A DNA stretch of 20,984 nucleotides. Origin: a virus. The notes under the pieces are model-generated. The model made no database searches and was not told where the DNA came from. It saw only the letters and a list, made by a program, of their open reading frames with translations. The stretch covers positions 1-20,984 of IMG/VR virus record IMGVR_UViG_3300032288_001727, one strand, 5' to 3'. Made by a program: the position numbers and the translations under genes. The stretch's first letter is position 1. Each line of letters starts with the position of its first letter. Of the stretch, positions 1-17,298 are shown piece after piece.

Positions 1-917
1 AGTGGGTACAGTCATATGTGAAGTCAGCAAATATCTTGTATAGAAATTATAAAATGCTTGGAACACCTGTTTATTTTCACCGAGGTTCTAAATTTATGAA
101 TGAAGTGTATTCTGGAAAAAAGATTGTGTTTGATGCTGATAAAAAATCAGATAGACCACAAGCACCAGGTTCCTTTTCTGATGATAAATGGAATCCAGGA
201 GATATTTGGATGACAACTCTAAAAACGGTGCCAAAAATTAGTACTGATTCTTGGTCTTCATTGAACAAAGACATTTATGATTTAGCTCGAGCAAAAAAAT
301 TAGTTGGAGTGTCTTTGAAAAAGGTTGGTGCATCAGCACACATTGAAGAATATAATGCATTATCAGCTAAACAAACAAAAGAATATCGATATGCCAGTTT
401 CAGAGTAACATCTGCTTCAGAACGTGGTCCATTACCTCCATTCTTCAATTCTATTGATTTATACATGTCTATTGGTGATAGAGAAGTGCAGTTTCGAGCT
501 ACATCTGGTGAAGCCAGCTGGCAGGGAGAAATTAAAGGTGCAACAGCTGCCGGTGGTAAAATTGGTGGCGGTAATGTCAACTTTTATTTAAAAAAATATG
601 TTGGCAAAGGTTTATTTGATAAGAGTGAAGATGAAGTTTTGAAATTTGTTAAGACAAAAGATTTCTTCAATGAGTTTTATGCATTATACAAAAAACATTT
701 TGATGGTAAAATATTACCATATGAAGAATTTGTTATGAACGCTAATAACAAACAAAAAGAATCAAAGGGATACCTGTTCTCTAAATATATGAACATGAAA
801 TTTATTGATATATTCTTAAGCGCTAATACGGCTACACGTAATAAAATTGCTACCGACTTTGTGAGATATGCTGCTTCAAATACCGACCAAAGTTCTTTTT
901 TCGTAAAAATATCCTAA
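1..917 (+). CDS. Conserved phage protein of unknown function, 5'-truncated
   Basis: The reading frame is open from base 3 with no stop before a GTG at 18, so the gene most likely begins upstream of the window and the GTG is internal. About 304 residues are visible, ending with TAA one base before the next ATG. I do not recognise a named family. Visible marks are a DKWNPGDIW stretch, followed about 35 residues later by LVGVSLKKVG. A buried Asp followed by a strand ending in x-x-K is loosely like PD-(D/E)XK nuclease cores, but this is only a weak resemblance. There is no signal peptide or membrane segment. The gene sits directly before the ligase-like gene, probably in the same transcript. Coding status is supported by length, codon pattern and tight spacing. 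Confidence 0.8.
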   Translation, partial: WVQSYVKSANILYRNYKMLGTPVYFHRGSKFMNEVYSGKKIVFDADKKSDRPQAPGSFSDDKWNPGDIWMTTLKTVPKISTDSWSSLNKDIYDLARAKKLVGVSLKKVGASAHIEEYNALSAKQTKEYRYASFRVTSASERGPLPPFFNSIDLYMSIGDREVQFRATSGEASWQGEIKGATAAGGKIGGGNVNFYLKKYVGKGLFDKSEDEVLKFVKTKDFFNEFYALYKKHFDGKILPYEEFVMNANNKQKESKGYLFSKYMNMKFIDIFLSANTATRNKIATDFVRYAASNTDQSSFFVKIS

Positions 918-918
918 A

Positions 919-2148
919 ATGAAATTCACACAATTTTTAACCGAATCAAAAGAAGGTAAGAACCTTCACCTAGAACACATTGAGGATGAAGTCTTAAATC
1001 GTGGTGTCTCTGGTGCTCGTGAAGCAATTAATTTCTTGCAATCTCTCCGAGATATGTTGGCAGGCCACTCACAATCACGGGTGAATGTTACAACAAAATG
1101 GGATGGTGCACCTGCTGTATTTTGCGGTATCAATCCGGAGAATGGTAAATTCTTTGTTGGTACTAAAGGTATATTCAATGCAAATCCAAAATTGAATTAT
1201 ACTGATGCAGACATTGATGCAAATCATTCTTCAGAAGGTTTAAACTCTAAACTTAAAGTTGCATTGCGTTATCTGCCTAAGTTAGGCATTAAAGGTATAT
1301 TGCAAGGCGACATGATGTTTGCAAAAGGTGATATTAACAAACAAGTTATTGATGGTCAATCATACATCACCTTTCAACCAAATACAATTGTCTATGCCGT
1401 TCCTTCTGATGCTAAGTTGGCTCGTATGATGCTTGATGCTCAAATGGGTATTGTCTTTCATACATCATACACAGGCAAGACGATGGCTGATATGAAGGCC
1501 TCATTCAATATTGATATTGGCCATTTGACTTCAACTAAAGATGTTTGGTTCCGTGATGCATCATTCACCGATGCTTCTGGTACTGCCACATTTACCGCAG
1601 AAGAAACTGCTGCTATTACTGGTATACTCTCACAAGCAGGCAGAACATTTCAAACAATCAACCCATTGAATTTGAATCGTATTTCTAATAGTGAAATTAT
1701 TATGACTTACATTAAGACTTTTAATAACACAAAAGTCCGTGCAGGTCAGGCTATCAGAGACACAAGAGCCCACACATTTGAATTAACACGATGGGTTGAA
1801 GCAAAGCTAAATAAAGATATCATTGATGCAAAGAAAGATGAAACTAAAAAGAAACGTGTCAAAGAGAAGACAGAGATTATGCGTTTCTTCAATAGTGCAG
1901 CCAGAGATTTAAAGGCTATATTTGACTTGATGAACCTGTTGGTTAATGCTAAGAATATGATTGTTAAGAAGTTACAACAAATGAAACAAGTTACTGGTAC
2001 ATTCTTACGTACAGACGATGGTTTCAAAATTACTAACCCCGAAGGTTTCGTGGCAGTTGATAGACTAAAAGGCAATGCAGTTAAACTGATTGACCGATTA
2101 GAATTTGCACACGCTAACTTTAATGCAACTAAAAATTGGAGTAATTGA
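919..2148 (+). CDS. Nucleotidyltransferase/ligase-like protein with KWDG motif and capsid-targeting-like N-terminus
   Basis: A 409-residue protein. Residues 60-63 read KWDG within TTKWDGAPAVFCG, which matches motif I (K-x-D-G) of covalent nucleotidyltransferases such as ATP-dependent DNA and RNA ligases, where the Lys takes AMP. Plausible downstream motifs follow in order: a motif III-like ILQGDMMF near 127-134, a motif IIIa-like ITFQPNTIVYAV near 150-161, and a motif IV-like GIVFH near 177-181. The C-terminal 170 residues are Lys-rich and mostly helical in character and have no motif I know. The N-terminus MKFTQFLTE|S resembles the T4 capsid-targeting peptide, with an (I/L)-x-E cleavage-type site after residue 9. 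The start lies one base after the upstream stop, and the stop overlaps the next ATG (TGATG). Likely role: a nucleic-acid ligase or related adenylyl/guanylyltransferase. The substrate is not inferable, and a non-ligase member of the fold is possible. Confidence 0.8.
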   Translation: MKFTQFLTESKEGKNLHLEHIEDEVLNRGVSGAREAINFLQSLRDMLAGHSQSRVNVTTKWDGAPAVFCGINPENGKFFVGTKGIFNANPKLNYTDADIDANHSSEGLNSKLKVALRYLPKLGIKGILQGDMMFAKGDINKQVIDGQSYITFQPNTIVYAVPSDAKLARMMLDAQMGIVFHTSYTGKTMADMKASFNIDIGHLTSTKDVWFRDASFTDASGTATFTAEETAAITGILSQAGRTFQTINPLNLNRISNSEIIMTYIKTFNNTKVRAGQAIRDTRAHTFELTRWVEAKLNKDIIDAKKDETKKKRVKEKTEIMRFFNSAARDLKAIFDLMNLLVNAKNMIVKKLQQMKQVTGTFLRTDDGFKITNPEGFVAVDRLKGNAVKLIDRLEFAHANFNATKNWSN

Positions 2149-2429
2149 TGGCTGAACAAAAGTTTAATATCAATGAGATTATGGCCGAGTATGGCGATAA
2201 TGATTTTGGTTTTACTGCAATAGATGAGGAAGAATATAATGCTGTTATTGCTGAGAAAGACGAAACAGTTGATGAATACAAAACTAGACTGAAAGAAGTT
2301 GAAAAGATTATTCTGCCATTCTTAACTAAACTATTAAAGACTGCCGACCAACCAATCATCAAATGGCCAAATAGAGGACCACAAATAGAGGCACAGATTC
2401 AAAAGTTATTGAATTTGACCAGAGGTTAA
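2148..2429 (+). CDS. Small conserved phage protein, unknown function
   Basis: A 93-residue acidic protein. The ATG at 2148 overlaps the upstream stop in TGATG, and I prefer it to the TTG just before it. The N-terminal third carries NINEIMAEYG, and the middle is Glu/Lys-rich and probably helical. The C-terminus carries PIIKWPNRGPQIEAQIQKLL, a Trp-Pro-Asn-Arg element that I recall from small proteins of marine T4-like phages, though I cannot name a function. No signal peptide or membrane segment is visible. Its coupling to the ligase-like gene upstream and the small gene downstream suggests co-translation. Confidence 0.75.
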   Translation: MAEQKFNINEIMAEYGDNDFGFTAIDEEEYNAVIAEKDETVDEYKTRLKEVEKIILPFLTKLLKTADQPIIKWPNRGPQIEAQIQKLLNLTRG

Positions 2430-2430
2430 T

Positions 2431-2766
2431 ATGAGATTTAAAGAGTATGAAGAATTGTTAGAGGCATCATATGCCGGCAACATCGGTATCATGGAACTAA
2501 TCAAGTTCAAACAGAAGGCAAACGACAAACAGAAAAAAGAGTTTGATGACCATGTAAAGAACAAACGTCACGAACAGGCTTGGAAAGTCGTCCAAGATGT
2601 GACTGGCGTAAAACTACATAAGAGTGTGCATGAAGAAACAAAGCCTGATATTCTTCCTAAATCAGGTGCAGGTGCATGGGGAACAGATGAATTGGCAAAC
2701 ACCTATAAAAAGGGAACGCCAGGTCAAAACATTGCCAAATTTAAAGATTACAAACGAACTAAGTAA
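2431..2766 (+). CDS. Small Lys-rich protein with capsid-targeting-like N-terminus
   Basis: A 111-residue basic, highly charged protein. Its ATG follows the upstream TAA by one base. The N-terminus reads MRFKEYEELLE|A. This fits the pattern M-(K/R)-x-F-x-x-(F/Y) followed by an L-x-E site, seen on several other proteins in this window and resembling the T4 capsid-targeting sequence. The rest is a helical Lys/Glu-rich middle and a Gly-containing tail (GAGAWGTDELANTYKKGTPG) of a style familiar from marine phage proteins. No enzyme motif is visible. An overlapping + frame at 2624-2848 crosses the intergenic gap and is a shadow. Likely role, by inference: a small internal head protein. Confidence 0.75.
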   Translation: MRFKEYEELLEASYAGNIGIMELIKFKQKANDKQKKEFDDHVKNKRHEQAWKVVQDVTGVKLHKSVHEETKPDILPKSGAGAWGTDELANTYKKGTPGQNIAKFKDYKRTK

Positions 2767-2783
2767 ACCAACTGGAGTATATT

Positions 2784-3617
2784 ATGAAAGACTTGATTAT
2801 AGGTGCAAGTACCAATTACGATTGGAACAAATTAAAATATTGGATTAATTCCATTAACAAATCAGGGTTTGAAGGCGATAAAGTCCTTATTCTGATGAAC
2901 TGTGATGCAGCCACAGTTAAGAAAGTGAACGAAGCAGGTTTCAAGGTCATTGGTTTTAACCAAGACCAACAAGGCAACTTGCAATACGAATCACAAATGC
3001 CGATTCACGTTGAACGATTCGGCCACATCTACGAATATCTCCGTAAAAACGAATATCGCTACGTCATTACTACAGACGTAAAAGATGTAATCTTTCAACA
3101 AAATCCTGTTGACTGGTTAGAAGCAAATCTAACCTCTGAAAATTTGGTCTTCTCATCTGAAAGTATTTTATACAAAGATGAACCATGGGGTGACCAAAAT
3201 CTATTAGAAACCTACGGCCCATACGTACACGAAAATTTTAAAAACAATGAGATATTTAATGTTGGCGTTCTTGCTGGTACTGGTAGTTCGATGCGTGATT
3301 TGGCTATCAACATCTTCACAGCAGCAACAAACAGGCCGATACCTATATGCGACCAATCTACGTTCAACTTCATGGTCTCTATGAGTCCGTATCGTGAAAC
3401 AAGTTTGTACAAACGCTCTGAAGATGGTTGGGCTTGCCAATTGGGTACAACAGTTGACCCATCTAAGATTCATCAATTCAAACCATTGTTGTTAGAAGCA
3501 TCACCAACTATTGATGGTGATACAGTAACTACATCAAAGGGAACACCATATTATATCGTACACCAGTATGATAGAGTTCCTGAATGGCGCAAATTGATTG
3601 AGGTGAAGTATGGCTAA
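2784..3617 (+). CDS. GT-A-like glycosyltransferase with DxxD motif
   Basis: A 277-residue protein with GGAG at 2774-2777 six bases before the ATG. The motif VITTDVKDVIFQQNP (residues 94-108) is the typical metal/nucleotide-sugar binding DxxDV(I/V)F element of bacterial GT-A glycosyltransferases. FNVGVLAGTG (158-167) and DQSTFNF (190-196) match the usual acceptor-side NxGxxxG and DQ positions, and HQYDR (260-264) supplies a late His typical of metal ligands. There is no signal peptide or membrane segment, so it should act in the cytoplasm on an activated sugar donor. It is the first gene of an eight-gene sugar cassette and overlaps the next gene by 8 nt. Donor and acceptor are unknown. Confidence 0.85.
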   Translation: MKDLIIGASTNYDWNKLKYWINSINKSGFEGDKVLILMNCDAATVKKVNEAGFKVIGFNQDQQGNLQYESQMPIHVERFGHIYEYLRKNEYRYVITTDVKDVIFQQNPVDWLEANLTSENLVFSSESILYKDEPWGDQNLLETYGPYVHENFKNNEIFNVGVLAGTGSSMRDLAINIFTAATNRPIPICDQSTFNFMVSMSPYRETSLYKRSEDGWACQLGTTVDPSKIHQFKPLLLEASPTIDGDTVTTSKGTPYYIVHQYDRVPEWRKLIEVKYG

Positions 3618-4320
3618 TGCGTTAGTAATGTCTGGTCATCTACGGACATTTAAAGACATTGCTGAAGAGGTTAAACATTTTGTTTCATTGAATGAACTTG
3701 ATGTTTACCTTTATATTTGGGATGAGGATAATCAAGCTGACATTGATTATGTTGTAAAGACTTTGCAACCAGTTAAATGGTTAGCTGAGAAGAATGAATT
3801 GTATGCACAAGAATTCTTTGATGCTGAAGACCGAATCTCAAAGAAGAACCCTAAAGAACTGATTACACCAGACCGCAATCATGTCACACTATCAATGCAC
3901 TTTGCCCGTAGAAAGGCGTATGAATTGATTGAGAAAGAGTATGACAATATTGTTTACAGTCGTTTTGATACTAGGTTGACCACATTCAAAGTACGACCAT
4001 TGGTTGAACAGTACAAAGATGCCGTGATTACACCAACAAATGAACAATATGGTATGGTGTCTGATATATTTGCTATTATTCCATGGCAACACAGAGAAGG
4101 CTATTTCTTCTACAATCGTGCAGAAGACATTTTGAATCGTAGGTTCAATAAGAAGACCAAAGAATGGTTGACTGAGAAGTTTTTCTGGCCAACTGGTCAA
4201 AGAGATATTGTGTTACACGATGAGAACAGATATTGTCCTCACCTGCTGTGTATGAGAAACTATTTTGAATCTAATACACCATACCTTGTAATTGATTTGC
4301 CTGTTTACATTAAGAGATAA
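3610..4320 (+). CDS. Glycosyltransferase-like protein, SRFD family (first of an adjacent pair)
   Basis: A 236-residue protein starting at an ATG inside the end of the upstream gene, with GAGGTG just before it. The N-terminus ALVMSGHLRTF is followed by a Leu/Asp-rich segment ending VYLYIWDED, then YSRFDTRLTT near residues 117-126. The next gene has the same layout (ALCVSGQPRG, then VFAHLWQDS, then RSRFDFALNT), so the two look like diverged paralogues. The layout of an SGxxR start, a hydrophobic strand ending in W-x-(D/E) and an (R/Y)SRFD motif is what I associate with phage and capsule-cluster glycosyltransferases. I see no experimentally defined family. Expected to be cytoplasmic, with substrate unknown. 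Confidence 0.7.
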   Translation: MANALVMSGHLRTFKDIAEEVKHFVSLNELDVYLYIWDEDNQADIDYVVKTLQPVKWLAEKNELYAQEFFDAEDRISKKNPKELITPDRNHVTLSMHFARRKAYELIEKEYDNIVYSRFDTRLTTFKVRPLVEQYKDAVITPTNEQYGMVSDIFAIIPWQHREGYFFYNRAEDILNRRFNKKTKEWLTEKFFWPTGQRDIVLHDENRYCPHLLCMRNYFESNTPYLVIDLPVYIKR

Positions 4321-4321
4321 T

Positions 4322-5026
4322 ATGAAAATTGCATTATGTGTGTCTGGCCAACCTAGAGGCCTTGCAACTGCCTTTCAGTATGTCAAAAAGAATCTGCTTG
4401 ACAAACATGATGTGACAGTATTTGCTCATCTTTGGCAAGACTCGACTAAAGATTTGGCACCATTGTGGATGTATGAGCCAAAGAAATTTGAACTTGAACA
4501 ACCAATGAACCCTGATTTGTCAAAGTACACCAGAGTTCCACCTCCACAACCAAACTGGAAAGTAAAGAACCCTGCTCTATCAACATATGCACAGTTCTAC
4601 TCTTTGATGAAGGCTAATAATTTAAAGAGAGAACATGAAAAAGAATTTGATATGACCTTTGATTGGGTAATTCGTTCTCGTTTTGATTTTGCATTGAATA
4701 CTGAAATTCCATTTGCAGAATTGGATAATACTAAGTTGTATATTCCAAATTGCCGAATGACACCAAACAGAGATTTTGGAAATGACCAGTTTGCTTTCTC
4801 ATCGTCACGCAACATGGATAAGTATTGTAATGTGTTTAATCGTATAGATGAATTCTATGATATTGGTGTCACGATGATTGGTGAAGATATGATGAGTATG
4901 AATTGGAAGACCACAGGTTTAACTGGTGAGAACCTTGTGTACTGCAATATGAATCATGCTTTCCCTCCCGGCCCACACAATGGAACATGGCATTCATTGG
5001 TGAGGGAAGACTTTGAAAAGTGGTAA
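4322..5026 (+). CDS. Glycosyltransferase-like protein, SRFD family (second of the pair)
   Basis: A 234-residue protein. I chose the ATG at 4322, one base after the upstream stop, over a start 30 nt further up inside that gene. KIALCVSGQPRG (residues 2-13), VFAHLWQDS (about 37-45) and VIRSRFDFALNT (about 117-128) match the preceding protein in order and spacing, pointing to an old tandem duplication. The later stretch with DQFAFSSSRNMDKY and GEDMM is consistent with a GT-A fold acceptor region, but no proven catalytic residue can be assigned. It overlaps the next gene by 14 nt. Likely adds a sugar in the same glycan as its neighbours. The substrate is unknown. Confidence 0.7.
   Translation: MKIALCVSGQPRGLATAFQYVKKNLLDKHDVTVFAHLWQDSTKDLAPLWMYEPKKFELEQPMNPDLSKYTRVPPPQPNWKVKNPALSTYAQFYSLMKANNLKREHEKEFDMTFDWVIRSRFDFALNTEIPFAELDNTKLYIPNCRMTPNRDFGNDQFAFSSSRNMDKYCNVFNRIDEFYDIGVTMIGEDMMSMNWKTTGLTGENLVYCNMNHAFPPGPHNGTWHSLVREDFEKW
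5002..5006 (+). promoter_or_regulatory. Ribosome binding site supporting a TTG start
   Basis: GAGGG lies six bases before a TTG at 5013, inside the end of the upstream glycosyltransferase gene. It supports the TTG as the true start of the kinase-like gene. The next in-frame ATG is 20 codons further on and would remove part of the N-terminal lobe. Confidence 0.55.
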
Positions 5027-5765
5027 AGTATTAAAAGAGTTAAAAGGTCATTCTAACAGCCATGTTTACCTAATGCAAGATGGTGATACTGTCTTTGTTA
5101 GGAAAACTGGTGACATTGACCGAAACTTGGAAAGATTTGATTCTCTTTCCAAGTTAAACTTGAGCCTGCCTAAAATCTATGAGATTACAGGCATGTATTA
5201 TGATATGGAATATATCTCTAGTTTAGAGATGAAGAAGTATTTGCCTACAAATAAAGTTGATAAACTAGTTGACTTTATTAAGAATACCATGTATAATCTA
5301 TCAAAGAATACCATTGAGAAAGATTATACTGAAACTTACCGCAAGAAACTGGCATCGTTTGACTTCAACAAGTTTGAAATGCCATTCACATCCGAAGAAC
5401 TACTAGATAAGTTACCAAAGGTTCTTCCATCTTCAGAGTATCATGGTGATTTCACACTAGAAAACATTCTCTATGATACAAACCAAGATGAGTTTGTATT
5501 GATTGACCCATTGACTACAGAGTATGATTCGTTTGTATTTGACTTGGCCAAATTAAGACAAGACCTTGTGTGCAAGTGGTTTATCAGAAATGACAATGTG
5601 TATTTGGATTCAAAACTGTATGCCATTATAGACAAATTGAACGGTTTTGTCTATAATGAGAATCAATATTTACTGATTCTGATGTTGATGAGAGTGTTGC
5701 CTTATACACACAATGAAAAAGATAAAGAATTTTTAATGACAGAAGTGAGAAGATTATGGAAATAA
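5013..5765 (+). CDS. APH/choline-kinase-fold small-molecule kinase
   Basis: A 250-residue protein with a TTG start preceded by GAGGG. The motif EYHGDFTLENILYD (residues 142-155) is the Brenner-type catalytic loop HGDxxxxN of aminoglycoside phosphotransferase and choline/ethanolamine-kinase-like enzymes: D146 is the catalytic base and N151 a metal ligand. FVLIDP (161-166) supplies the metal-binding Asp that replaces DFG, and VFVRK (K31) is the likely ATP-binding Lys. The domain is slightly short compared with typical APH enzymes. It phosphorylates a small hydroxyl compound, most plausibly a sugar or alcohol head group. The next gene is a nucleotidyltransferase, so a kinase-then-activation pair like LicA-LicC is a reasonable analogy, but the substrate cannot be read from sequence. 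Antibiotic resistance is an unlikely role in this context. Confidence 0.8.
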   Translation: MKSGKVLKELKGHSNSHVYLMQDGDTVFVRKTGDIDRNLERFDSLSKLNLSLPKIYEITGMYYDMEYISSLEMKKYLPTNKVDKLVDFIKNTMYNLSKNTIEKDYTETYRKKLASFDFNKFEMPFTSEELLDKLPKVLPSSEYHGDFTLENILYDTNQDEFVLIDPLTTEYDSFVFDLAKLRQDLVCKWFIRNDNVYLDSKLYAIIDKLNGFVYNENQYLLILMLMRVLPYTHNEKDKEFLMTEVRRLWK

Positions 5766-6781
5766 TTATGCCTTGTGCGGGTCTATCGACTCGCTTTCCC
5801 AATATGCGACCAAAGTACCTGTTGTCAGACTATAACAATAGGTTGATGATTGAGAATGCAGCCAAGAACTTTATTGGTAAATACAACGTCACGATTGCTA
5901 TTCTGAAACAACACAATGAGATGTTTAATGCAGAGAATAAATTGCGTGAGGCCTTTGGTGATAAAGTTAACATTGTTGTGTTAGATGAACCAACAAGTGG
6001 TCCTGCCGATACAGTCTATCAGGCCATTATGAAGGCTGAATATTTCTTCACATCAGTCTCACCAATGCTAATCAAAGACTGTGATGGTTTCTACGATACA
6101 GATTTGGTTGATGGTAATGCCATCTATGTTTCTAAGTTGTCAAAGAATCCAGACATTCGTAATGCACCTGCAAAGAGTTACACAATCACCAATGAACAGG
6201 GCATCATTACCTCTGTTGTTGAGAAACAGATTGTGAGTAATTCATTCTGTGTTGGTGGTTATCAGTTTGCAAGTATTGGTGAGTACGTTGATACGTTTGA
6301 GAAACTGAAAGACAATGCCACTTCTGAAATCTTTGTGTCAAACATTATTGATTATATGATTTCAAATGGTGCAGTATTCAATGAGAAAGAAGTTGAGAAC
6401 TTTGTTGATGTTGGTACTGCCGATGATTGGTTTAAATTCAATAACAAGCCAACATACTTCTGTGACATTGATGGTACAATCATTAAGACTAAAGACTTCC
6501 ATGATGACCCATATGAACCAATTCAAAAGAATGTGGATGCCTTGTTGAAAGAACAAGCCCGTGGTTGTAAACTGGTGTTTGTGACTGCTCGTAAGAAAAG
6601 ATACGAAGACTACACCAATAAGATTCTGACTGAGATGGGTTTTGTAAACTATGTGTTGGTGATGGAAGCAAACCATTCACGCCGTGTATTGATTAATGAT
6701 TATGCCAACTCTAACCCATTCCCTTCTGCTGTTGCGTTGAATCTGAAACGTGATAGTGATAATCTTGGAGATATGATATGA
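5756..6781 (+). CDS. Sugar nucleotidyltransferase fused to a HAD-family phosphatase
   Basis: A 341-residue two-domain protein overlapping the kinase gene by 10 nt. Residues 1-225 form a Rossmann-like nucleotidyltransferase: MPCAGLSTRFPNMRPKYLL gives the AGxxTR...PK signature for NTP binding, KDCDG (107-111) the metal-binding Asp pair, and DVGTADDW (218-225) the conserved late loop. Residues 232-341 form a HAD phosphatase: FCDIDGTI (nucleophile D237, acid D239), VTAR (276-279) and INDYANSNP (313-321, with the acidic motif IV). The first domain should make an NDP-sugar or NDP-alcohol from a phosphate ester. The second should remove a phosphate, perhaps from the precursor of the same pathway. 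Both fit a nucleotide-activated sugar route with the adjacent kinase and epimerase. The exact donor nucleotide is unknown. Confidence 0.85.
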   Translation: MEIIMPCAGLSTRFPNMRPKYLLSDYNNRLMIENAAKNFIGKYNVTIAILKQHNEMFNAENKLREAFGDKVNIVVLDEPTSGPADTVYQAIMKAEYFFTSVSPMLIKDCDGFYDTDLVDGNAIYVSKLSKNPDIRNAPAKSYTITNEQGIITSVVEKQIVSNSFCVGGYQFASIGEYVDTFEKLKDNATSEIFVSNIIDYMISNGAVFNEKEVENFVDVGTADDWFKFNNKPTYFCDIDGTIIKTKDFHDDPYEPIQKNVDALLKEQARGCKLVFVTARKKRYEDYTNKILTEMGFVNYVLVMEANHSRRVLINDYANSNPFPSAVALNLKRDSDNLGDMI

Positions 6782-7776
6782 ACATTCTGATTACTGGTGG
6801 TGCAGGTGGTATCGGTTCAACTCTATGCATTGAATTGGCCAAGAACGGTCATACAGTAGTTGCACTAGATGATTTCAGTCATGGTTACATGGAGAACTTA
6901 TTTGATAATGGCAAGCAGGTCTGTGATGCAGTACCACTTGATATCAGAAAGACAAAGAAACTAACAAAGCTTTTGCTATCTAACAAGACTGATGTTATAG
7001 TGCATTTGGCAGCGTTAACATCTTTACCTGAGTGTGAATCTAATCCTTCTGAGTGCTTGAGTGTGAATGTTGCAGGTACTGCCTCTGTACTCAAGGCAGC
7101 CAAAGATGCGGGTGTCAAACGAACCATTGTTGCTAGTACATCAGCCATCTATGAAGGTAATACTGAAGCGGAGGCACCATTTCCCGAAGACATACAAGTT
7201 AAACCATCATTGTTCTATCCATTGTCAAAGAAACTAATGGAAGATGTGGTGCAATCATACATTGCCAACTATGACATGGACATTGTGACACTACGATTCT
7301 TCAATGTGTTTGGTCCAAGGCAGGATGTCCACCGTCCATCACCACCACTTCTAAATTATATCGTAAAACAAGTTGCTAAGCAAGAACCATGCACATTCTA
7401 TTCAAATGGTGAACAAAAACGGGATTATGTCCATGTTGACGATGTAGTAAAGTTGATTGAACTTTGCATTAATAAACCAAAGGCAAAAGGACAAATCTAC
7501 AATGTATGCACAGGCACATTAACATCGGTAAAGGATGTTATTGGTTCTGCTGTGACCGCATTTGGTGATTTGAAATATGAATTCAAACCTTCAAAAGAAT
7601 ATTGGTCTAGTTACAACCTATCAATATCTAAAGCGGCAGTCGAAAGAGAAGTCAATAAGTTTTCTTTAGGTTCTTGTTCGAAGGCTATGTGGGAACTTGG
7701 TTGGACACCGAACAAAGGTATTGAATACTTGATGACAGAAACTATGAAACAAAATTATGAGCTTATTACTAGATAA
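6778..7776 (+). CDS. NAD-dependent sugar epimerase/dehydratase (extended SDR)
   Basis: A 332-residue protein whose ATG overlaps the upstream stop in ATGA. TGGAGGIG (residues 6-13) is the GxxGxxG dinucleotide-binding loop and the acidic DD at 31-32 favours NAD over NADP. STS (120-122) and YPLSK (147-151) supply the catalytic Ser/Thr and Tyr-x-x-x-Lys. RFFNVFGPRQ and RDYVHVDD are the sugar-nucleotide binding elements typical of UDP-glucose 4-epimerase and GDP/dTDP-sugar dehydratase relatives. Length is normal for the family and the protein is cytoplasmic. It should convert the activated sugar made upstream, by C4-epimerisation or dehydration. UDP-glucose/GlcNAc 4-epimerase-like activity is the nearest guess, but substrate specificity cannot be fixed. 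Confidence 0.9.
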   Translation: MNILITGGAGGIGSTLCIELAKNGHTVVALDDFSHGYMENLFDNGKQVCDAVPLDIRKTKKLTKLLLSNKTDVIVHLAALTSLPECESNPSECLSVNVAGTASVLKAAKDAGVKRTIVASTSAIYEGNTEAEAPFPEDIQVKPSLFYPLSKKLMEDVVQSYIANYDMDIVTLRFFNVFGPRQDVHRPSPPLLNYIVKQVAKQEPCTFYSNGEQKRDYVHVDDVVKLIELCINKPKAKGQIYNVCTGTLTSVKDVIGSAVTAFGDLKYEFKPSKEYWSSYNLSISKAAVEREVNKFSLGSCSKAMWELGWTPNKGIEYLMTETMKQNYELITR

Positions 7777-8470
7777 AAACTTATTCATCGTTACCTCTGC
7801 ATTGGTGCCAAATATTGGTGTGATTCAACCACAAGATAGGTTCAATCAAACTATTGATACTTTGAAGTCATTGCGTAAACAATTACCAAATGATTACATC
7901 TTCTTCTCTGATGGTTCACCTAATGCTGTACCTAAAGAATGGGAAGATGAGATTTCAAAGTATGCTAATGCAATGGCGTTTTGGGCTCAAGACCCTGAGA
8001 TTAAACAATTAGCCGGTGCAGGTCAAAAGAGTCAGGCTGAGATTGTGTTATTGTTTAAAACATTACAGGCCTTGAAAGGTAACCCGCAATTACATCCAAT
8101 CATGCAGGACACAAAACGAATCTTTAAGTTTTCAGCACGAAGTATATTGCATGATAGCTTTGATATTAAAGAATATGATAACCTATTTGGTAAGTATGTG
8201 TTTAAGACACGAATACCATCTTGGTTGTCACAAGATAAACAGGCACAAACAACTGACAATCTGTTTATCACACGTATGTATTCTATGTGCCCATCACTTA
8301 TAGATGATTATTTACAAACATTAGTTAAGTGCTATAATACTGTAAACGAACATGGGATTGATACAGAACACGCCCATTATCAACACATAGATAAGAAGTA
8401 TCTGATTGAATTTGACAAACTGCATTGTGAAGGCATTATGGCCGGAACAGGCGCTACTGAGGTATATTAA
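7757..8470 (+). CDS. Uncharacterised protein of the sugar cassette, possibly a glycosyltransferase
   Basis: A 237-residue protein starting 20 nt inside the epimerase gene. The N-terminus has a strand (NLFIVTSALV), then QDRFNQTIDTLKSLRKQ and YIFFSDGSP, a layout like the nucleotide-binding half of small GT-A-like enzymes. In the centre, RIFKFSARSILHDSFD recalls the K-(I/F)-S-G-R-Y element of capsule glycosyltransferases, and AGTGATEVY ends the protein. I cannot assign a family with certainty. Its position between an epimerase and a sugar-type methyltransferase, in an overlapping run, supports a glycan role. No signal peptide or membrane span is seen. Confidence 0.6.
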   Translation: MSLLLDKNLFIVTSALVPNIGVIQPQDRFNQTIDTLKSLRKQLPNDYIFFSDGSPNAVPKEWEDEISKYANAMAFWAQDPEIKQLAGAGQKSQAEIVLLFKTLQALKGNPQLHPIMQDTKRIFKFSARSILHDSFDIKEYDNLFGKYVFKTRIPSWLSQDKQAQTTDNLFITRMYSMCPSLIDDYLQTLVKCYNTVNEHGIDTEHAHYQHIDKKYLIEFDKLHCEGIMAGTGATEVY

Positions 8471-9154
8471 ATGAACTTAAAAGAATATTGGCTGAACAAC
8501 ACCGGCAAAAAGATTACAAAATGGACACATTACTTTTGGGTATATGACCGCCACTTTGCGGCACTAAGAGATAAACCAATTAAGATGTTGGAGATTGGTG
8601 TATTGAATGGTGGTTCATTAGAGATGTGGAAGAAATACTTCCATCCTGATAGTACAATCGTTGGCATTGATATCACACCAAGTTGCAAAGACTTTGAAGA
8701 TACAGAAAACAATGTACATGTACGCATTGGTGACCAATCTGACCCTGAGTTTCTGCAAAGCCTTGTAGATGAATTTGGTGAGTTTGATTTGGTGTTGGAT
8801 GATGGCAGTCACCATGTTGCACATGTAAACAAAACATTCCAGTTTTTGTATCCAAAGATTGCAAAGAATGGCACTTACTTCATTGAAGACACACATGCGG
8901 CCTATTGGTCATCACATGGTGGTTCTATTGACCATCCTGATTCTATCAATAATGTGGCTAAGAAGATGGTCGATAAGATTAATGCTGAACACACCCGTGG
9001 TCAGATGGAACCAGATTTCTTCACATACGAAACCAAATGCATGTCGGTGTATGATAGTATGGTTGTATTTGAGCGAGGAAATGTAGGCGCCAAACGACCA
9101 GAGGAGTATGGCGGACCAAAATCTGATGAGGTTTTCGTCATCAAGACTCACTAA
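8471..9154 (+). CDS. SAM-dependent O-methyltransferase, TylF/MycE/CmcI type
   Basis: A 227-residue protein with its ATG immediately after the upstream TAA. MLEIGVLNGGSLEMWKKYF (residues 39-57) is the SAM-binding motif I of the macrocin-O-methyltransferase-like family. IVGIDITP (63-70) carries the acidic residue after strand 2. LVLDDGSHHV (107-116) and YFIEDTHAAYW (136-146) hold the acidic and His residues which in that family bind a divalent metal and position the sugar hydroxyl. Family members methylate sugar hydroxyls on finished glycosides or antibiotics. As the last gene of the cassette it probably caps a transferred sugar. A nucleic-acid or protein target is less likely. A tandem CTAAATA at its 3' end may start the next transcript. 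Confidence 0.85.
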   Translation: MNLKEYWLNNTGKKITKWTHYFWVYDRHFAALRDKPIKMLEIGVLNGGSLEMWKKYFHPDSTIVGIDITPSCKDFEDTENNVHVRIGDQSDPEFLQSLVDEFGEFDLVLDDGSHHVAHVNKTFQFLYPKIAKNGTYFIEDTHAAYWSSHGGSIDHPDSINNVAKKMVDKINAEHTRGQMEPDFFTYETKCMSVYDSMVVFERGNVGAKRPEEYGGPKSDEVFVIKTH

Positions 9155-9194: not shown

Positions 9195-11594
9195 ATGAAA
9201 TTTAGAGAATTTATTACTGAGAATAAAGAAAAACATGCGGTCATGGCGTTTGGCCGTATGAACCCACCTACAACCGGACATGAAGTTTTGGTTCATAAGG
9301 TTAAATCGGTGGCCAATCAAGTTGGCGGTTCTCATCACATTGTCCTGTCCCACTCACAAGATGCCGCTAAGAACCCTCTTACATCGGCACAAAAAGTCAA
9401 GCATGCTAAGAGATTCTTTCCAGATACGAACATCTCTGTAGCAACCAAAGAAGAACCAAACTTCTTAACACAAGCAGCCAAACTACACAAACAAGGTGTT
9501 ACACACCTTCACATGGTTGCTGGTTCTGACCGTGTTGCTGAATACCATAAATTGTTACACAAATACAATGGTACACACGAAGGCGCACTATTCAATTTCA
9601 AAAAGATTACACTTCACAATGCAGGTGCTCGTGACCCTGATGCTGAAGGTACATCTGGTATGTCCGCTTCAAAGATGAGGTCACATGCTAACACAAACAG
9701 TTTTGATGACTTTAGACAAGGCATTCCAAAACATGTACCTGAACACCACGCCAAAGAATTGTTCCGTGATGTTCGTAAAGGTATGAACATTAAAGAATCT
9801 GTAGACCTCAACGAAGAATTTGAAATGCTTTCTGAAGGTGTACACGACCAAGGCATCTTCAAGGCTGTGTTCTTAGCAGGCGGTCCAGGTTCTGGCAAAG
9901 ACTATGTGATGAATAATACATTGGATGGTCAAGGTCTAACTGAAATCAATTCTGATAAGGCACTTGAGTTCTTAATGGACAAAGAAGGCCTTGACAAGAT
10001 GATGCCTGTTGGTGAGACAGAGAAACGAAATCTTGTTCGTGGTCGTGCAAAGAACATTACAGAATTACGTCAACAACTTGCATTGTTAGGTCGCAATGGC
10101 CTGATTATCAATGGCACAGGTGATGATGTAGTTAAAACTAAAAACATCAAAGACCAATTGGAAAAGTTGGGTTATGAAACATCTATGTTACTGGTTAACA
10201 CAAGAGATGATATTTCAGCACAACGCAACATAGAACGTGGTCAACGTGGTGGTCGTGCAGTACCAGAACCAATTCGTAAAGAGAAATGGGATAATGTACA
10301 ATTAGCTCGTACTGAGTATGCACAAATGTTTGGTGCAAACTATTCCGAATTTGATAACTCTGAAGATTTGCGTGAAGCCGATCCAGAAACAGTTAAGGCT
10401 AAGAAGTCTGAGTTGTTAAGTTTGTTTAACAAGTTCAAAGAGTTTGTTGCGGCACCACCAAAGTCACAAGAGGCACAATTCTGGACTGCCAATGAATTGG
10501 ACAAGAAAGATTCTCTACCAGTTCCTAAAGATGGTGCAGAACAATTACCTCCATCTAATGATGAAACTGCTAGTGAAGCAAGTAAACTAGGTTTACAATA
10601 CTATGGTTTTGGCCGTTATGGTAAAAATGGTAAAGTAACACATCGTTCTGTACACGGCCAGTTGGTAATGGTTAATAAAGAAGAACCAAAACAACCAAAG
10701 ATTCCAGTTAATAGTTCATCACAGAAACCTGTTAAGAAGGTTGTTAATGAATCTGTTACAGTTTCCATTACAGGTGACACAGCAGAAGAAGTTAATCAGA
10801 TGTTTGCTATGATGCATGGCGGAACAACATCAGAAAATAAACAAACAGAACAATACCAATTCACAGACAATACGGAAGTATTGACTCTTGGTACAAGATA
10901 TGAATCCATTGGTGATAGACCAGATAGTATGACGTTCACCAATGATGATGTTCTTATAGAAAAAAATGAAGTGTTGAAAGACAAAAATGGTAAAGTGCGT
11001 GTCTTTATGCTTAGAAATTCAGCAGCAAAAGAAGCACACACTAAAAATGGAACTATTGTAAAATACAATAATGGTTATATTGTTAAACTTAATGGAGAAA
11101 ATAAAAATGCTAGATTATCTGAAAAAACTATTCACACCAAAACAACCGGCACCAGTGGAAGCCTCCTTACCGAAAGTAGAGGAAGCACCATTGGTTCAGT
11201 TGGAACAAGTGGCACCGCAAGAACCATTGCAGAGCACAGAGCCAGTGGTAACTACACCAGAACCAGCGCCAGTGCAACAGACAGCACCGGTACAGGAACA
11301 GAAACCTGCACCGAAGAAACAACCCGTAGCAAAATCACGCTCTCAGAAATCCGTACCCGCCAAAAAGAAAAAGTAATAGAGTCTATTAATAATGGCGAAT
11401 CTGGTCTATCAATGGCTGCATCTGGTGAAAACCTTGGTCGTGATGGTTTGACAAGAACCAAAACACTAAAGAAACCACTAGAAGAATTAACTGGTGATGA
11501 AACTGGTGCATCAATTGGTGACCAAAAAGAAGGTGAACTGAAAAGAGTTGGTATTAATCTTAACACATTTAAATCAAAGAAGTTTGTAGGATGA
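9195..11594 (+). CDS. Fusion: cytidylyltransferase-like domain, P-loop kinase domain and long C-terminal region
   Basis: A 799-residue protein with GAGG at 9185-9188 before the ATG. The N-terminus MKFREFITE|N looks like a T4 capsid-targeting peptide. Residues 12-195 form a nucleotidyltransferase: AFGRMNPPTTGHE gives the (H/T)xGH motif at 26-29, and GMSASKMR (155-162) the ISSTxxR-like motif. Residues about 220-400 form a P-loop kinase: FLAGGPGSGKD (226-236, Walker A K235), LIINGTGDD, and an Arg-rich lid around QRNIERGQRGGR. The order resembles NadR, but the kinase P-loop is more like T4 Pnk or zeta-type kinases, so an NAD role is not established. Residues 400-799 are mosaic, including GLQYYGFGRYG (466-476) and SVTVSITGDTAEEV. 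The interdomain linker has LNE and LSE sites fitting prohead-protease cleavage. Residues about 638-727 are low-complexity Thr/Ser/Gly because another gene occupies that DNA in a different frame. Confidence 0.85.
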   Translation: MKFREFITENKEKHAVMAFGRMNPPTTGHEVLVHKVKSVANQVGGSHHIVLSHSQDAAKNPLTSAQKVKHAKRFFPDTNISVATKEEPNFLTQAAKLHKQGVTHLHMVAGSDRVAEYHKLLHKYNGTHEGALFNFKKITLHNAGARDPDAEGTSGMSASKMRSHANTNSFDDFRQGIPKHVPEHHAKELFRDVRKGMNIKESVDLNEEFEMLSEGVHDQGIFKAVFLAGGPGSGKDYVMNNTLDGQGLTEINSDKALEFLMDKEGLDKMMPVGETEKRNLVRGRAKNITELRQQLALLGRNGLIINGTGDDVVKTKNIKDQLEKLGYETSMLLVNTRDDISAQRNIERGQRGGRAVPEPIRKEKWDNVQLARTEYAQMFGANYSEFDNSEDLREADPETVKAKKSELLSLFNKFKEFVAAPPKSQEAQFWTANELDKKDSLPVPKDGAEQLPPSNDETASEASKLGLQYYGFGRYGKNGKVTHRSVHGQLVMVNKEEPKQPKIPVNSSSQKPVKKVVNESVTVSITGDTAEEVNQMFAMMHGGTTSENKQTEQYQFTDNTEVLTLGTRYESIGDRPDSMTFTNDDVLIEKNEVLKDKNGKVRVFMLRNSAAKEAHTKNGTIVKYNNGYIVKLNGENKNARLSEKTIHTKTTGTSGSLLTESRGSTIGSVGTSGTARTIAEHRASGNYTRTSASATDSTGTGTETCTEETTRSKITLSEIRTRQKEKVIESINNGESGLSMAASGENLGRDGLTRTKTLKKPLEELTGDETGASIGDQKEGELKRVGINLNTFKSKKFVG
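11094..11097 (+). promoter_or_regulatory. Ribosome binding site for the nested gene
   Basis: GGAG lies nine bases before an ATG at 11107 that is out of frame with the surrounding large gene. It is the main signal that the nested frame is translated independently, and it favours this ATG over the upstream in-frame ATGs at 11071 and 11092. Confidence 0.5.
11107..11376 (+). CDS. Nested proline/lysine-rich small protein in an alternative frame
   Basis: An 89-residue frame lies entirely inside the larger fusion gene, shifted relative to it. It has GGAG before its ATG and ends with tandem stops TAA TAG. The product starts with an amphipathic segment, MLDYLKKLF, continues as a Pro/Glu/Val/Gln-rich linker, and ends in a very basic tail (AKSRSQKSVPAKKKK) like H1-type DNA-binding tails. 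Its codons mostly end in A or T/G as elsewhere in the window. The same bases read in the large frame give an unusual run of C-ending ACC/AGC/GCC codons and a Thr/Ser/Gly low-complexity peptide. That asymmetry suggests this frame is the one shaped by selection. I recall similar small proteins starting MLDxLKKLF as separate genes in marine T4-like phages. Function is unknown, and it could be non-expressed. Confidence 0.6.
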   Translation: MLDYLKKLFTPKQPAPVEASLPKVEEAPLVQLEQVAPQEPLQSTEPVVTTPEPAPVQQTAPVQEQKPAPKKQPVAKSRSQKSVPAKKKK

Positions 11595-11884
11595 AATCAT
11601 TTAAAGCATTCATAACAGAAACGCCTGCTTGGACACGCAAAGAAGGCAAGAACCCTGAGGGTGGTTTAAACCGCAAGGGTATTGCTTCTTATCGTGCTGC
11701 AAATCCAGGTTCTAAACTATCGATGGCGGTTACAACTCCACCATCAAAGTTAAAGCCTGGTTCTAAAGCGGCTAATCGTAGAAAATCATTCTGTGCTCGT
11801 ATGGGTGGCATGGAAGGTCCAATGAAGAAACCCAATGGTGAACCAACACGCAAAGCACTAGCGTTGAGGAAGTGGAACTGTTAA
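11591..11884 (+). CDS. Small basic protein with AWTRKEGKNPEGGLN domain and capsid-targeting-like N-terminus
   Basis: A 97-residue, strongly basic protein whose ATG overlaps the upstream stop in ATGA. The N-terminus MKSFKAFITE|T matches the capsid-targeting pattern with an I-x-E site after residue 10. The remainder is the conserved block with AWTRKEGKNPEGGLNRKG, RRKSFCARMGGMEGPMKKPN and a C-terminal ALRKWNC. I remember this as a domain of unknown function (DUF6321, from memory) that is common in T4-like marine phages and also found in giant viruses. The high Arg/Lys content and two conserved Cys suggest nucleic-acid binding. Likely a DNA-associated internal head protein, by inference. Confidence 0.85.
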   Translation: MKSFKAFITETPAWTRKEGKNPEGGLNRKGIASYRAANPGSKLSMAVTTPPSKLKPGSKAANRRKSFCARMGGMEGPMKKPNGEPTRKALALRKWNC

Positions 11885-16570: not shown

Positions 16571-16924
16571 ATGTCTTTATGGGGAAATTTAGATGCTGCT
16601 AACAATGCACCAAAGTTCGCAGGAACTGGTGGTATTGGCTTGACAGCTAACACACAACAATTATTTTCAAACACAACTTTTGCTACAACAAGTTCTTCAT
16701 TAGGTAGAGCAGGTCAAGCGATTGGTGTTTTTGGACTTAGTGCTTTAGAAGCATCCAATACAGGCGCTGGAAAAGCTAATACAGCTAGCGCACATGCTGG
16801 TTGGGTAATGCGTAAAGAAGGCACTGGCGGCCGTGCTGGTCGTATTCAGACGGAAACTTTGGTTGCTATGGGTTCCATGACTGGTGACCACGCAGCTGCG
16901 AATACAACTTACCCAGGCGTCTAA
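16571..16924 (+). CDS. Small conserved phage protein, probable virion component
   Basis: A 117-residue protein with AGGAG six bases upstream and a late-promoter-like CATAAATA before that. It is rich in Ala, Gly, Thr and Asn. The N-terminus MSLWGNLDAANNAPKF and the C-terminal block AGWVMRKEGTGGRAGRIQTE (residues 76-95), followed by TLVAMGSM, are of a type I recognise from marine T4-like phages, where the protein is usually listed as structural or hypothetical. No membrane span or signal peptide is seen. Its stop overlaps the next ATG (TAATG). Function unknown. Confidence 0.75.
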   Translation: MSLWGNLDAANNAPKFAGTGGIGLTANTQQLFSNTTFATTSSSLGRAGQAIGVFGLSALEASNTGAGKANTASAHAGWVMRKEGTGGRAGRIQTETLVAMGSMTGDHAAANTTYPGV

Positions 16925-17298
16925 TGCGATTCTCTGAATATATCCGTGAGATGGGTGTTGGTGCGGTGGCAACACCGATGGCCACACCTTCTCTCATGGA
17001 TACTAATTTAGATAGTCTTAACACACGTTTAGATTATGATACTGATGAGAAATTTATGTCTCCTGAATCTGGTATACAAAGGATTCGTAGAGTGTTGCAC
17101 CTGTATGGGTATGACTTAGCAGCACTCTACGATGCCGATCCAGAGGGTGAGGAGATAGTTATCGATTTGGATGATAATGTAGGCGTATACATTTTATATA
17201 CTCTCACCGATGATAATCGTTATGAATTTTATGCTGAAGTAGGCAATGAAAGTCGTATGCAAGAACTTTTATCGGACGAGGGCACAGAAGAAGAATAA
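16924..17298 (+). CDS. Acidic conserved phage protein with capsid-targeting-like N-terminus
   Basis: A 124-residue acidic protein. The N-terminus MRFSEYIRE|M fits the repeated pattern with an I-x-E site after residue 9. The body is an alpha/beta-looking domain with SPESGIQRIRRVLHLYGYDL (residues 46-65) and a strand-rich part (VGVYILYTL, YEFYAEVG), and it ends in an acidic tail. I recall relatives in marine T4-like phages but no function. The overlap with the upstream stop (TAATG) suggests translational coupling. It could be another head-internal protein or a small virion-assembly factor. Confidence 0.75.
   Translation: MRFSEYIREMGVGAVATPMATPSLMDTNLDSLNTRLDYDTDEKFMSPESGIQRIRRVLHLYGYDLAALYDADPEGEEIVIDLDDNVGVYILYTLTDDNRYEFYAEVGNESRMQELLSDEGTEEE

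Follow-up and report, generated by a model that had tools for sequence, protein, structure and literature searches.

The T4 proteins IpII, IpIII and Alt begin with a short peptide that ends at a Glu cleavage point. For IPIII, the first ten residues are enough for head targeting and a fused cargo is brought into the cell, with residues 4 and 7 mattering for targeting and residues 8 and 10 for processing, as set out in the available text of PMC9026906. Several cyanophages have NMNAT-like virion proteins (T4-GC190) that carry a tag of the same type and were found in virions by mass spectrometry (MS), according to the accessible parts of PMC3037559, PMC9146016 and PMC9602691. In several phages T4-GC190 lies in the same neighborhood as a member of DUF6267 (PF19782, T4-GC71), a family of T4-like phages with no assigned function. 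Here we describe a DUF6267 gene at positions 919 to 2148 of a virus sequence of 20,984 bases that carries no completeness estimate (IMG/VR record IMGVR_UViG_3300032288_001727, the whole of which we call the window), whose product has a predicted ligase-type fold and starts with a tag of the T4 kind.

We computed conserved catalytic-type residues, a ligase-type predicted fold, a tag with a matching head-protease site, and a recurrent gene neighborhood. We propose that the protein is a non-canonical covalent nucleotidyltransferase, probably an end-sealing ligase, that would be packaged and injected in the tagged lineages. Because its parts are linked, we give this joint statement about an even chance.

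The window protein is a full-length member of its family (DUF6267, phrog_455, T4-GC71), and its branch has a conserved capsid-targeting-type tag, whereas the cyanophage members examined have none. It shares with RNA ligases (Naegleria Rnl, REL1, T4 Rnl1 and Rnl2) a predicted catalytic domain with candidate motifs in the order I-III-IIIa-IV-V, and with the Naegleria enzyme a spacing of 14 between motifs IV and V. It differs from RNA ligases in the helical bundle between motifs IIIa and IV, in the Asp of motif III, in having no recognized accessory domain and in showing no significant sequence relation. ATP- and NAD-dependent DNA ligases have the same superfamily fold, judging from the model, but the DUF6267 protein has neither an OB domain nor a match to PF01068 or PF01653. 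The tag is one residue shorter than the T4 IPIII peptide and its cargo here is a predicted ligase; the Alt peptide falls outside the pattern that we used. T4-GC190 is a partner enzyme, not a ligase, and in those phages checked DUF6267 itself is untagged.

The gene and its family

919..2148, plus strand: DUF6267 / phrog_455 gene, putative covalent nucleotidyltransferase, 409 amino acids (aa), ATG start.

The protein matched the whole PF19782 model (E 1.6e-113, 380.3 bits against a cut-off of 27), with an alignment that spanned model positions 1-376 of 376, and also matched phrog_455 (E 1.1e-109). The phrog_455 profile is 764 positions long and runs on into a cytidylyltransferase-like domain, a part that also matches the window open reading frame (ORF) 9195-11594. 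Relatives of DUF6267 were found in 468 of 50,697 phage records, cyanophages predominating, and the closest named relative is Methylophilales phage Melnitz (50.8% identity). Thirty-four DUF6267 loci in bacterial or archaeal genome assemblies were taken, judging by their titles, as phage contigs binned with their hosts. Scanned against Pfam with a limit of E 1, the protein matched DUF6267 alone, with no match to PF09511, PF09414, PF01068 or PF01653, and PADLOC gave none for it. Promoter and terminator scans of window positions 1-3000 showed no excess over shuffles.

A ligase-type predicted fold with conserved candidate motifs

The AlphaFold2 model of the protein (pLDDT 83.0, pTM 0.76; residues 1-3 and 5-16 below pLDDT 50) was compared with 999 chains taken from the Foldseek ranking, and the 50 best entries were listed. 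All 50 were ligases, 22 RNA ligase entries followed by 28 DNA ligase entries. The best match was the Naegleria RNA ligase 6vt9 (Z 8.9, 182 residues, 3.6 Å); further RNA ligase matches were REL1 (Z 8.4), T4 Rnl1 (7.9) and T4 Rnl2 (7.7), and the DNA ligase entries had Z values of 6.0-6.6. The protein of the upstream gene, put through the same structural procedure, gave no chain at Z of at least 5, so the list of ligases is not a by-product of the method. An earlier note on this DNA, made from the letters alone, had suggested an enzyme that transfers AMP or GMP covalently, and with ligases in all 50 listed matches out of 999 chains, the model does not lack a nucleotidyltransferase core. On the strength of the model, a ligase-superfamily fold is very probable for this protein. 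Searches of PDB sequences with phmmer and hmmsearch, tried as another route to the ligase family, were set aside, their matches being taken as chance.

Conservation was assessed in an alignment of 95 homologues, thinned at 85% identity from the 310 that passed the length filter (326 loci). These were 36-85% identical to the window protein. The motif assignments below are our own, those after motif I being candidates.

1096..1107, plus strand: motif I, K60-W-D-G (codons 60-63), with predicted nucleotidylated Lys60.
1303..1311, plus strand: candidate motif III, Q129-G130-D131, in predicted strand 127-135.
1372..1395, plus strand: candidate motif IIIa, F152-Y159, in predicted strands 147-152 and 157-162.
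1447..1470, plus strand: family-specific conserved strand G177-Y184 (GIVFHTSY), predicted strand 176-185.
1597..1977, plus strand: helical insertion, residues 227-353, between motifs IIIa and IV, predicted helices.
2041..2052, plus strand: candidate motif IV, E375-G-F-V378, with invariant residues.
2083..2097, plus strand: candidate motif V, K389-L-I-D-R393, with K389 and R393 invariant.

K60, D62 and G63 of the motif I region were invariant (95/95), as were P65, F78, F79 and K83; W61 was W in 92 homologues and F in 3. The same full invariance (95/95) held for Q129, G130 and D131 in the motif III region and for E375, G376, V378, K389 and R393 in the C-terminal region. Residues F152, P154, N155, T156 and Y159 of the motif IIIa region were also invariant in the alignment, and beyond it G177, H181, T182 and Y184. 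On this assignment the candidate motifs stand in the order I-III-IIIa-IV-V, with an invariant motif IV Glu and one invariant motif V Lys. The spacing of 14 between E375 and K389 equals that between E312 and K326, residues named in the structure titles of Naegleria ligase mutants.

The earlier note had read KWDG and ordered downstream motifs as those of a nucleotidyltransferase. K60-W-D-G was confirmed at codons 60-63; candidate motifs III and V have non-canonical residues. The conserved stretch G177..H181-T182..Y184 downstream of motif IIIa has no motif IV Glu; motifs IV and V are likely the C-terminal E375-GFV and K389, beyond the long helical insertion. In the model the helices of this insertion are residues 227-245, 249-257, 259-274, 282-303, 307-326 and 328-353. 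The insertion is much reduced in three short cyanophage members (S-SM1, Syn33 and P-TIM68; 295-324 aa), which keep the motifs, with Q-A-D as motif III; for P-TIM68 the sequence was taken from an upstream start (locus position 2998), not from the annotated one. In the S-SM1 clade, all 65 of 65 short DUF6267 ORFs matched the loose patterns that we used for motif I and for motifs III, IV and V. We consider it probable that Lys60 transfers a nucleotide covalently, presumably by adenylylation.

The N-terminal tag

919..945, plus strand: tag M1-E9 (MKFTQFLTE); the head protease is predicted to cut behind E9 and to leave Ser10 as the mature N-terminus.

The protein begins MKFTQFLTE-SKE. Its N-terminus matches those of T4 IpII and IpIII, and FLTE| matches T4 gp23, which has the sequence FLTE-A with the Glu at 65. 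Glu65 is the cleavage point of gp23. The head protease family PF03420 was found in 11/12 records of relatives, a count that includes T4, and an LxE site stood at the matching place, by eye, in 13/13 major capsid proteins (3 by a stricter script pattern). Neither a head protease gene nor a major capsid gene was seen in the window fragment.

Tags were counted with one regular expression at gene starts. In a control on 90 kb of T4, with ATG starts only, it hit two gene starts, those of IpII and IpIII, and beyond these a single internal ATG. It missed IpI, Alt and the starts of gp67, gp68, gp21, gp22 and gp24, and the pattern is therefore strict. For the IMG/VR loci and the S-SM1 clade, any of three start codons no more than 15 codons from the first ATG was accepted. 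The four-group count covered 320 IMG/VR loci with 2,645 ORFs, excluding the window and five named phage loci; the comparison ORFs were the unassigned ones, ORFs of named neighbor families being excluded. Loci within a group are mutually related, so Fisher tests on these counts overstate their independence.

DUF6267 was tagged at 77/78 loci in the window group of close homologues, versus 10/557 unassigned ORFs of the same loci, and at 72/78 loci in the DLP6-like group, versus 70/603, which is more than chance would give. The fractions were 17/79 versus 17/368 in the pelagiphage-type group and 0/79 versus 0/306 in the P-HM2-type group. The DLP6-like group had 53 distinct tag sequences in which the anchors, for which the pattern itself selects, were the same and the other positions were free. 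Among the pelagiphage members outside the pattern, several begin with short forms such as MELLNE-D, which resemble the MELITELFDE-D of T4 Alt.

Some other genes carry similar starts. Four genes in the window fit the tag pattern, namely DUF6267, its partner and the ORFs at 11591-11884 (MKSFKAFITE, a DUF6321 protein) and 16924-17298 (MRFSEYIRE). In Melnitz (locus L327, 82-1131), a RimK-like ATP-grasp protein with a TTG start fits the pattern (LTQKFSQFITE), which suggests another injected enzyme. Tagged small proteins near DUF6267 in loci L293 (5450-5998) and L290 (12159-12716) have HD-type motifs and, by eye, the look of a metal-dependent phosphohydrolase.

The NMNAT-like partner and published virion proteomes

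9195..11594, plus strand: partner with the tag MKFREFITE, in which a zeta-toxin-type P-loop kinase domain comes after an NMNAT/cytidylyltransferase-like domain (phrog_3041 E 1.3e-66; PF06414 E 7e-10).

PF01467 scored above its cut-off in the partners of S-SM1, P-HM2, Melnitz and S-PM2 and below it in the window partner. A profile of five partner sequences found no convincing PDB chain for the NMNAT label, and the PDB matches of the window partner's kinase were weak adenylate kinases. DUF6267 and the NMNAT-like domain form one polypeptide of 591 aa in S-PM2. Of the two S-PM2 records, L086 and L370, the older one splits them into separate ORFs and that of a deletion mutant has one ORF of 591 aa.

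In the S-SM1 clade the tag sits on the partner. DUF6267 was tagged in 0/65 cases in S-SM1-type cyanophages, and the next gene, T4-GC190, carried the tag at 80/80 loci of the clade, versus 4/387 other ORFs, all from close relatives within one clade. T4-GC190 was detected by MS in S-SM1 virions; the main text of that paper, as far as available, does not name T4-GC71 (PMC3037559). For S-SZBM1, the virion table in the accessible part of PMC9146016 contains cytidylyltransferase 140 with two peptides, and the sequences show that protein 140 is tagged and the DUF6267 protein 141 is not. In S-SCSM1 the NMNAT-like protein 91, detected in virions (PMC9602691, available text), carries the tag, and the untagged phrog_1462 protein 90 is labelled a virion protein. 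The S-SCSM1 record labels 48 coding sequences as virion proteins by our count, against 45 detected in the available text of PMC9602691, and label and MS list thus differ somewhat. Most of the virion-labelled S-SCSM1 proteins are untagged. A cytidylyltransferase is likewise part of S-CREM2 virions (PMC10665884, section 18).

The tag thus agrees with the presence of the partner in the virions of three phages and, by sequence, predicts that DUF6267 is packaged in the window group. The earlier note had likened the N-terminus to a capsid-targeting peptide, a likeness well supported by the T4 IpII and IpIII starts that the same pattern finds, by the matching gp23 site and by the tagged partner in cyanophage virions. 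We consider packaging likely in the tagged lineages. The broader idea that the whole DUF6267 family is packaged was dropped, as the cyanophage members examined are untagged and go unreported in two published cases.

Neighboring genes

3..917, plus strand: upstream neighbor, phrog_1462 protein, putative PD-(D/E)XK-like nuclease (phrog_1462 E 6.4e-39), truncated where the window begins.

The upstream gene stops one base ahead of the DUF6267 ATG, and its frame is open to the window edge, which cuts it. Invariants of the phrog_1462 family are P109, D111 and S157-L-K159. The upstream protein of a locus 98% identical was modelled (pLDDT 92.0); no Foldseek match for it reached E 0.001, and no chain a Z of 5. 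Since no structural match was found, the nuclease label is taken only from the D111...S157-L-K159 motif and from motifs seen by eye in other genes at the -1 position. These -1 genes fell into 29 BLAST-linked components among 270 loci, and 64/270 were tagged. Several contain D ... [ES]xK motifs by eye, and together they may form a hypervariable pool of nucleases for injection.

The NMNAT-like gene directly follows DUF6267 in P-HM2, S-SM1, Syn33 and S-SZBM1, and does not in P-TIM68 or S-SCSM1. In the window the partner is 7 kb from DUF6267, past sugar-modification-type genes. The ORFs between the two at 2784-9154 are, by eye, of sugar, glycosyltransferase, epimerase and methyltransferase type; a HAD-like stretch occupies the C-terminal part of the ORF at 5756-6781. 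The small protein encoded at 2431-2766 has the sequence MRFKEYEELLEA. Its counterpart in related loci such as L036 to L038, L040 and L041 is 297 aa long, and the start of that protein is a tagged HAD phosphatase part.

A HAD phosphatase (DxDxT-type motif) was found no more than 4 genes from DUF6267 in 20/320 loci and was tagged in 15/20. Four representative tagged HAD phosphatases match phrog_415, polynucleotide kinase (E 1.3e-10 to 6.8e-9). A kinase related to that of the window was present in 55/320 loci, 47 of them pelagiphage-type, and one untagged kinase directly upstream of DUF6267 matches phrog_505, also polynucleotide kinase (E 6.9e-6). By analogy with T4 PseT and RnlA (T4 annotation), this is company that a nucleic-acid end-repair ligase could keep.

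Discussion

We envisage the following course of events. The tagged enzyme would be drawn into the prohead, where the head protease would cut after Glu9, and the processed enzyme would be packed with the genome and probably injected with it. In the cell, Lys60 would take AMP from ATP (or NAD+), the AMP would be passed to a 5'-phosphate end, and this end would then be sealed to a 3'-OH. Ends of the incoming DNA, or cell RNA cleaved by defense enzymes, might in this way be mended ahead of phage gene expression. The enzyme may cooperate with the tagged NMNAT-like/kinase neighbor, joined in some relatives by a nuclease-like protein and by a HAD phosphatase that is tagged as well. That the sealing of nucleic-acid ends is the main function is a proposal we favor slightly. 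RNA ends are favored by the missing OB domain and by the ranking of the predicted structure; DNA ends are favored by the vicinity of replication genes and by the missing match to four ligase models in 8/11 DUF6267 records, both described below.

Several results weigh against this proposal. Canonical ligases have a Glu in motif III and a second Lys in motif V; here motif III carries Asp (D131), and position 391, where ligases have the second Lys, is V or I. The model ends in a helix (393-400) right behind motif V, with no C-terminal OB domain. Plain Foldseek against the PDB returned nothing at E 0.001 or better, and its ranking places carbonic anhydrases first, human DNA ligase IV ninth and REL1 31st. 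A Z below 8 possibly reflects a common arrangement, in the tool's own description, and 11/999 chains reached 8. Comparisons by hhalign with T4 Rnl1, 28 T4 Rnl2 relatives, T4 gp30 and one other phage ligase, run with the full profile and with a core profile minus the insertion, gave nothing significant; columns 373-386, near motif IV, were paired with T4 Rnl1 225-238, a weak match of 14 columns (P 0.05).

Other points bear on packaging and on the neighborhood. Our literature search found no virion proteome of a phage with a tagged DUF6267. The available text of PMC9146016 makes no mention of the untagged S-SZBM1 member of DUF6267 (protein 141), and the S-SCSM1 member (protein 257) lies elsewhere in the genome, untagged and with no virion label. 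Two annotated S-SCSM1 gene starts have the tag pattern, and one of them, SSCSM1_186 (2OG-Fe(II) oxygenase, record 145303-145917), has no virion label. In the window group the -1 gene was tagged at 0/69 loci. Of the 320 loci, whose flanks are limited, 74 had a HAD phosphatase or a kinase. The partner resembles NadR in its domain order, a nucleotidyltransferase followed by a P-loop kinase (PMC9503650, available text), which would mean NAD+ synthesis, not end healing.

We considered three other explanations. DUF6267 might be the replicative ligase that seemed missing from cyanophages and their relatives; it would do the work of T4 gp30 on Okazaki fragments, and the tag would be incidental. DUF6267 lies near UvsX/RecA and gp41 or DnaB-like helicase genes in Melnitz, HTVC008M, P-HM2, S-PM2, S-SM1 and S-SZBM1, and near mazG too in the cyanophages. 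Eight of 11 DUF6267 records (Melnitz, HTVC008M, P-HM2, S-PM2, G001, G004, G005 and G006, of which the G records may be fragments) have no match to PF01068, PF09414, PF01653 or PF09511, and PF01068 was found in 0/10 window-group records, all possible fragments. A review, in its accessible text, states that g30 homologues were not found in cyanomyoviruses and that distant ones may have gone unrecognized (PMC2984593). However, DLP6, G002 and G003 (3/11 records) carry both DUF6267 and a PF01068 ligase, a coexistence that also counts against our own proposal and for which we dropped simple gp30 replacement. S-SCSM1 has a protein of 165 aa annotated, by annotation only, as a DNA ligase, and its DUF6267 gene is far from replication genes. 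The C-terminal OB domain that DNA ligases have is missing from the model, in whose structural comparison RNA ligases come ahead of DNA ligases, and the strong conservation of the tag in two groups would be left unexplained. A replicative role seems unlikely to us.

The protein may instead transfer a nucleoside monophosphate without ligation. The acceptor would be a protein of the host, a small molecule or the end of an RNA, and the NMNAT-like partner would supply the nucleotide or recycle it. The fusion of DUF6267 to an NMNAT-like domain, often also its neighbor, would fit such an enzyme, as would the non-canonical motifs III and V, the missing OB domain and the vaccinia capping enzyme present among the weak Foldseek matches. 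The NadR-like domain order of the partner (PMC9503650, available text) would fit as well, with TIGR01526 matches far below cut-off, and early delivery would suit host modification, as with T4 Alt (T4 annotation). The best structural matches are nevertheless end-joining RNA ligases, with no capping enzyme among the 50 matches listed, and some of the kinase and phosphatase neighbors are of polynucleotide kinase type, which points to nucleic-acid ends. We regard transfer without ligation as doubtful. Very improbable is a structural or regulatory head protein with the nucleotidyltransferase fold as a relic without catalysis, for although the motifs are divergent and no significant sequence-profile link to ligases was found, the expected catalytic residues are invariant down to 36% identity, the motifs persist in the short forms, and many lineages carry DUF6267 without the tag.

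The end-sealing proposal can be extended to a head-carried, injected end-healing and sealing kit made up of the nuclease-like protein, the polynucleotide kinase-type HAD phosphatase and P-loop kinase, the NMNAT-like enzyme and the DUF6267 ligase, with the tag shifting between members by lineage. In its boldest form the ligase would use NAD+, and the NMNAT coupled to it, in S-PM2 by fusion, would remake NAD+ from the released NMN and ATP. This extension is speculative and distinctly unlikely; if its boldest form were true, a self-recharging ligase could work in cells whose NAD+ is drained by defense systems.

In the open-licence literature searched, no paper named DUF6267, PF19782 or phrog_455. 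The available text of papers on capsid targeting with RNA ligase and on RNA repair with the virion, PMC7824862, PMC9503650 and PMC5512222 among them, described no capsid-delivered ligase. That NMNAT-like proteins occur in virions had been published before. The apparently new points are the ligase-type assignment of DUF6267, its tag, and the shift of the tag to the partner in cyanophages.

The tag offers a sequence rule for guessing which enzymes T4-like phages inject, a rule that agrees with three cyanophage proteomes for the partner and has one unconfirmed tagged S-SCSM1 gene. If DUF6267 is assigned as a ligase, a gene that is common among T4-like phages of aquatic bacteria would gain a function. 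Cyanophages, which seem to have no DNA ligase, would gain a candidate for one, a matter left open in the accessible text of PMC2984593. If the proposal is true, nucleic-acid repair could begin in the infected cell before phage gene expression.

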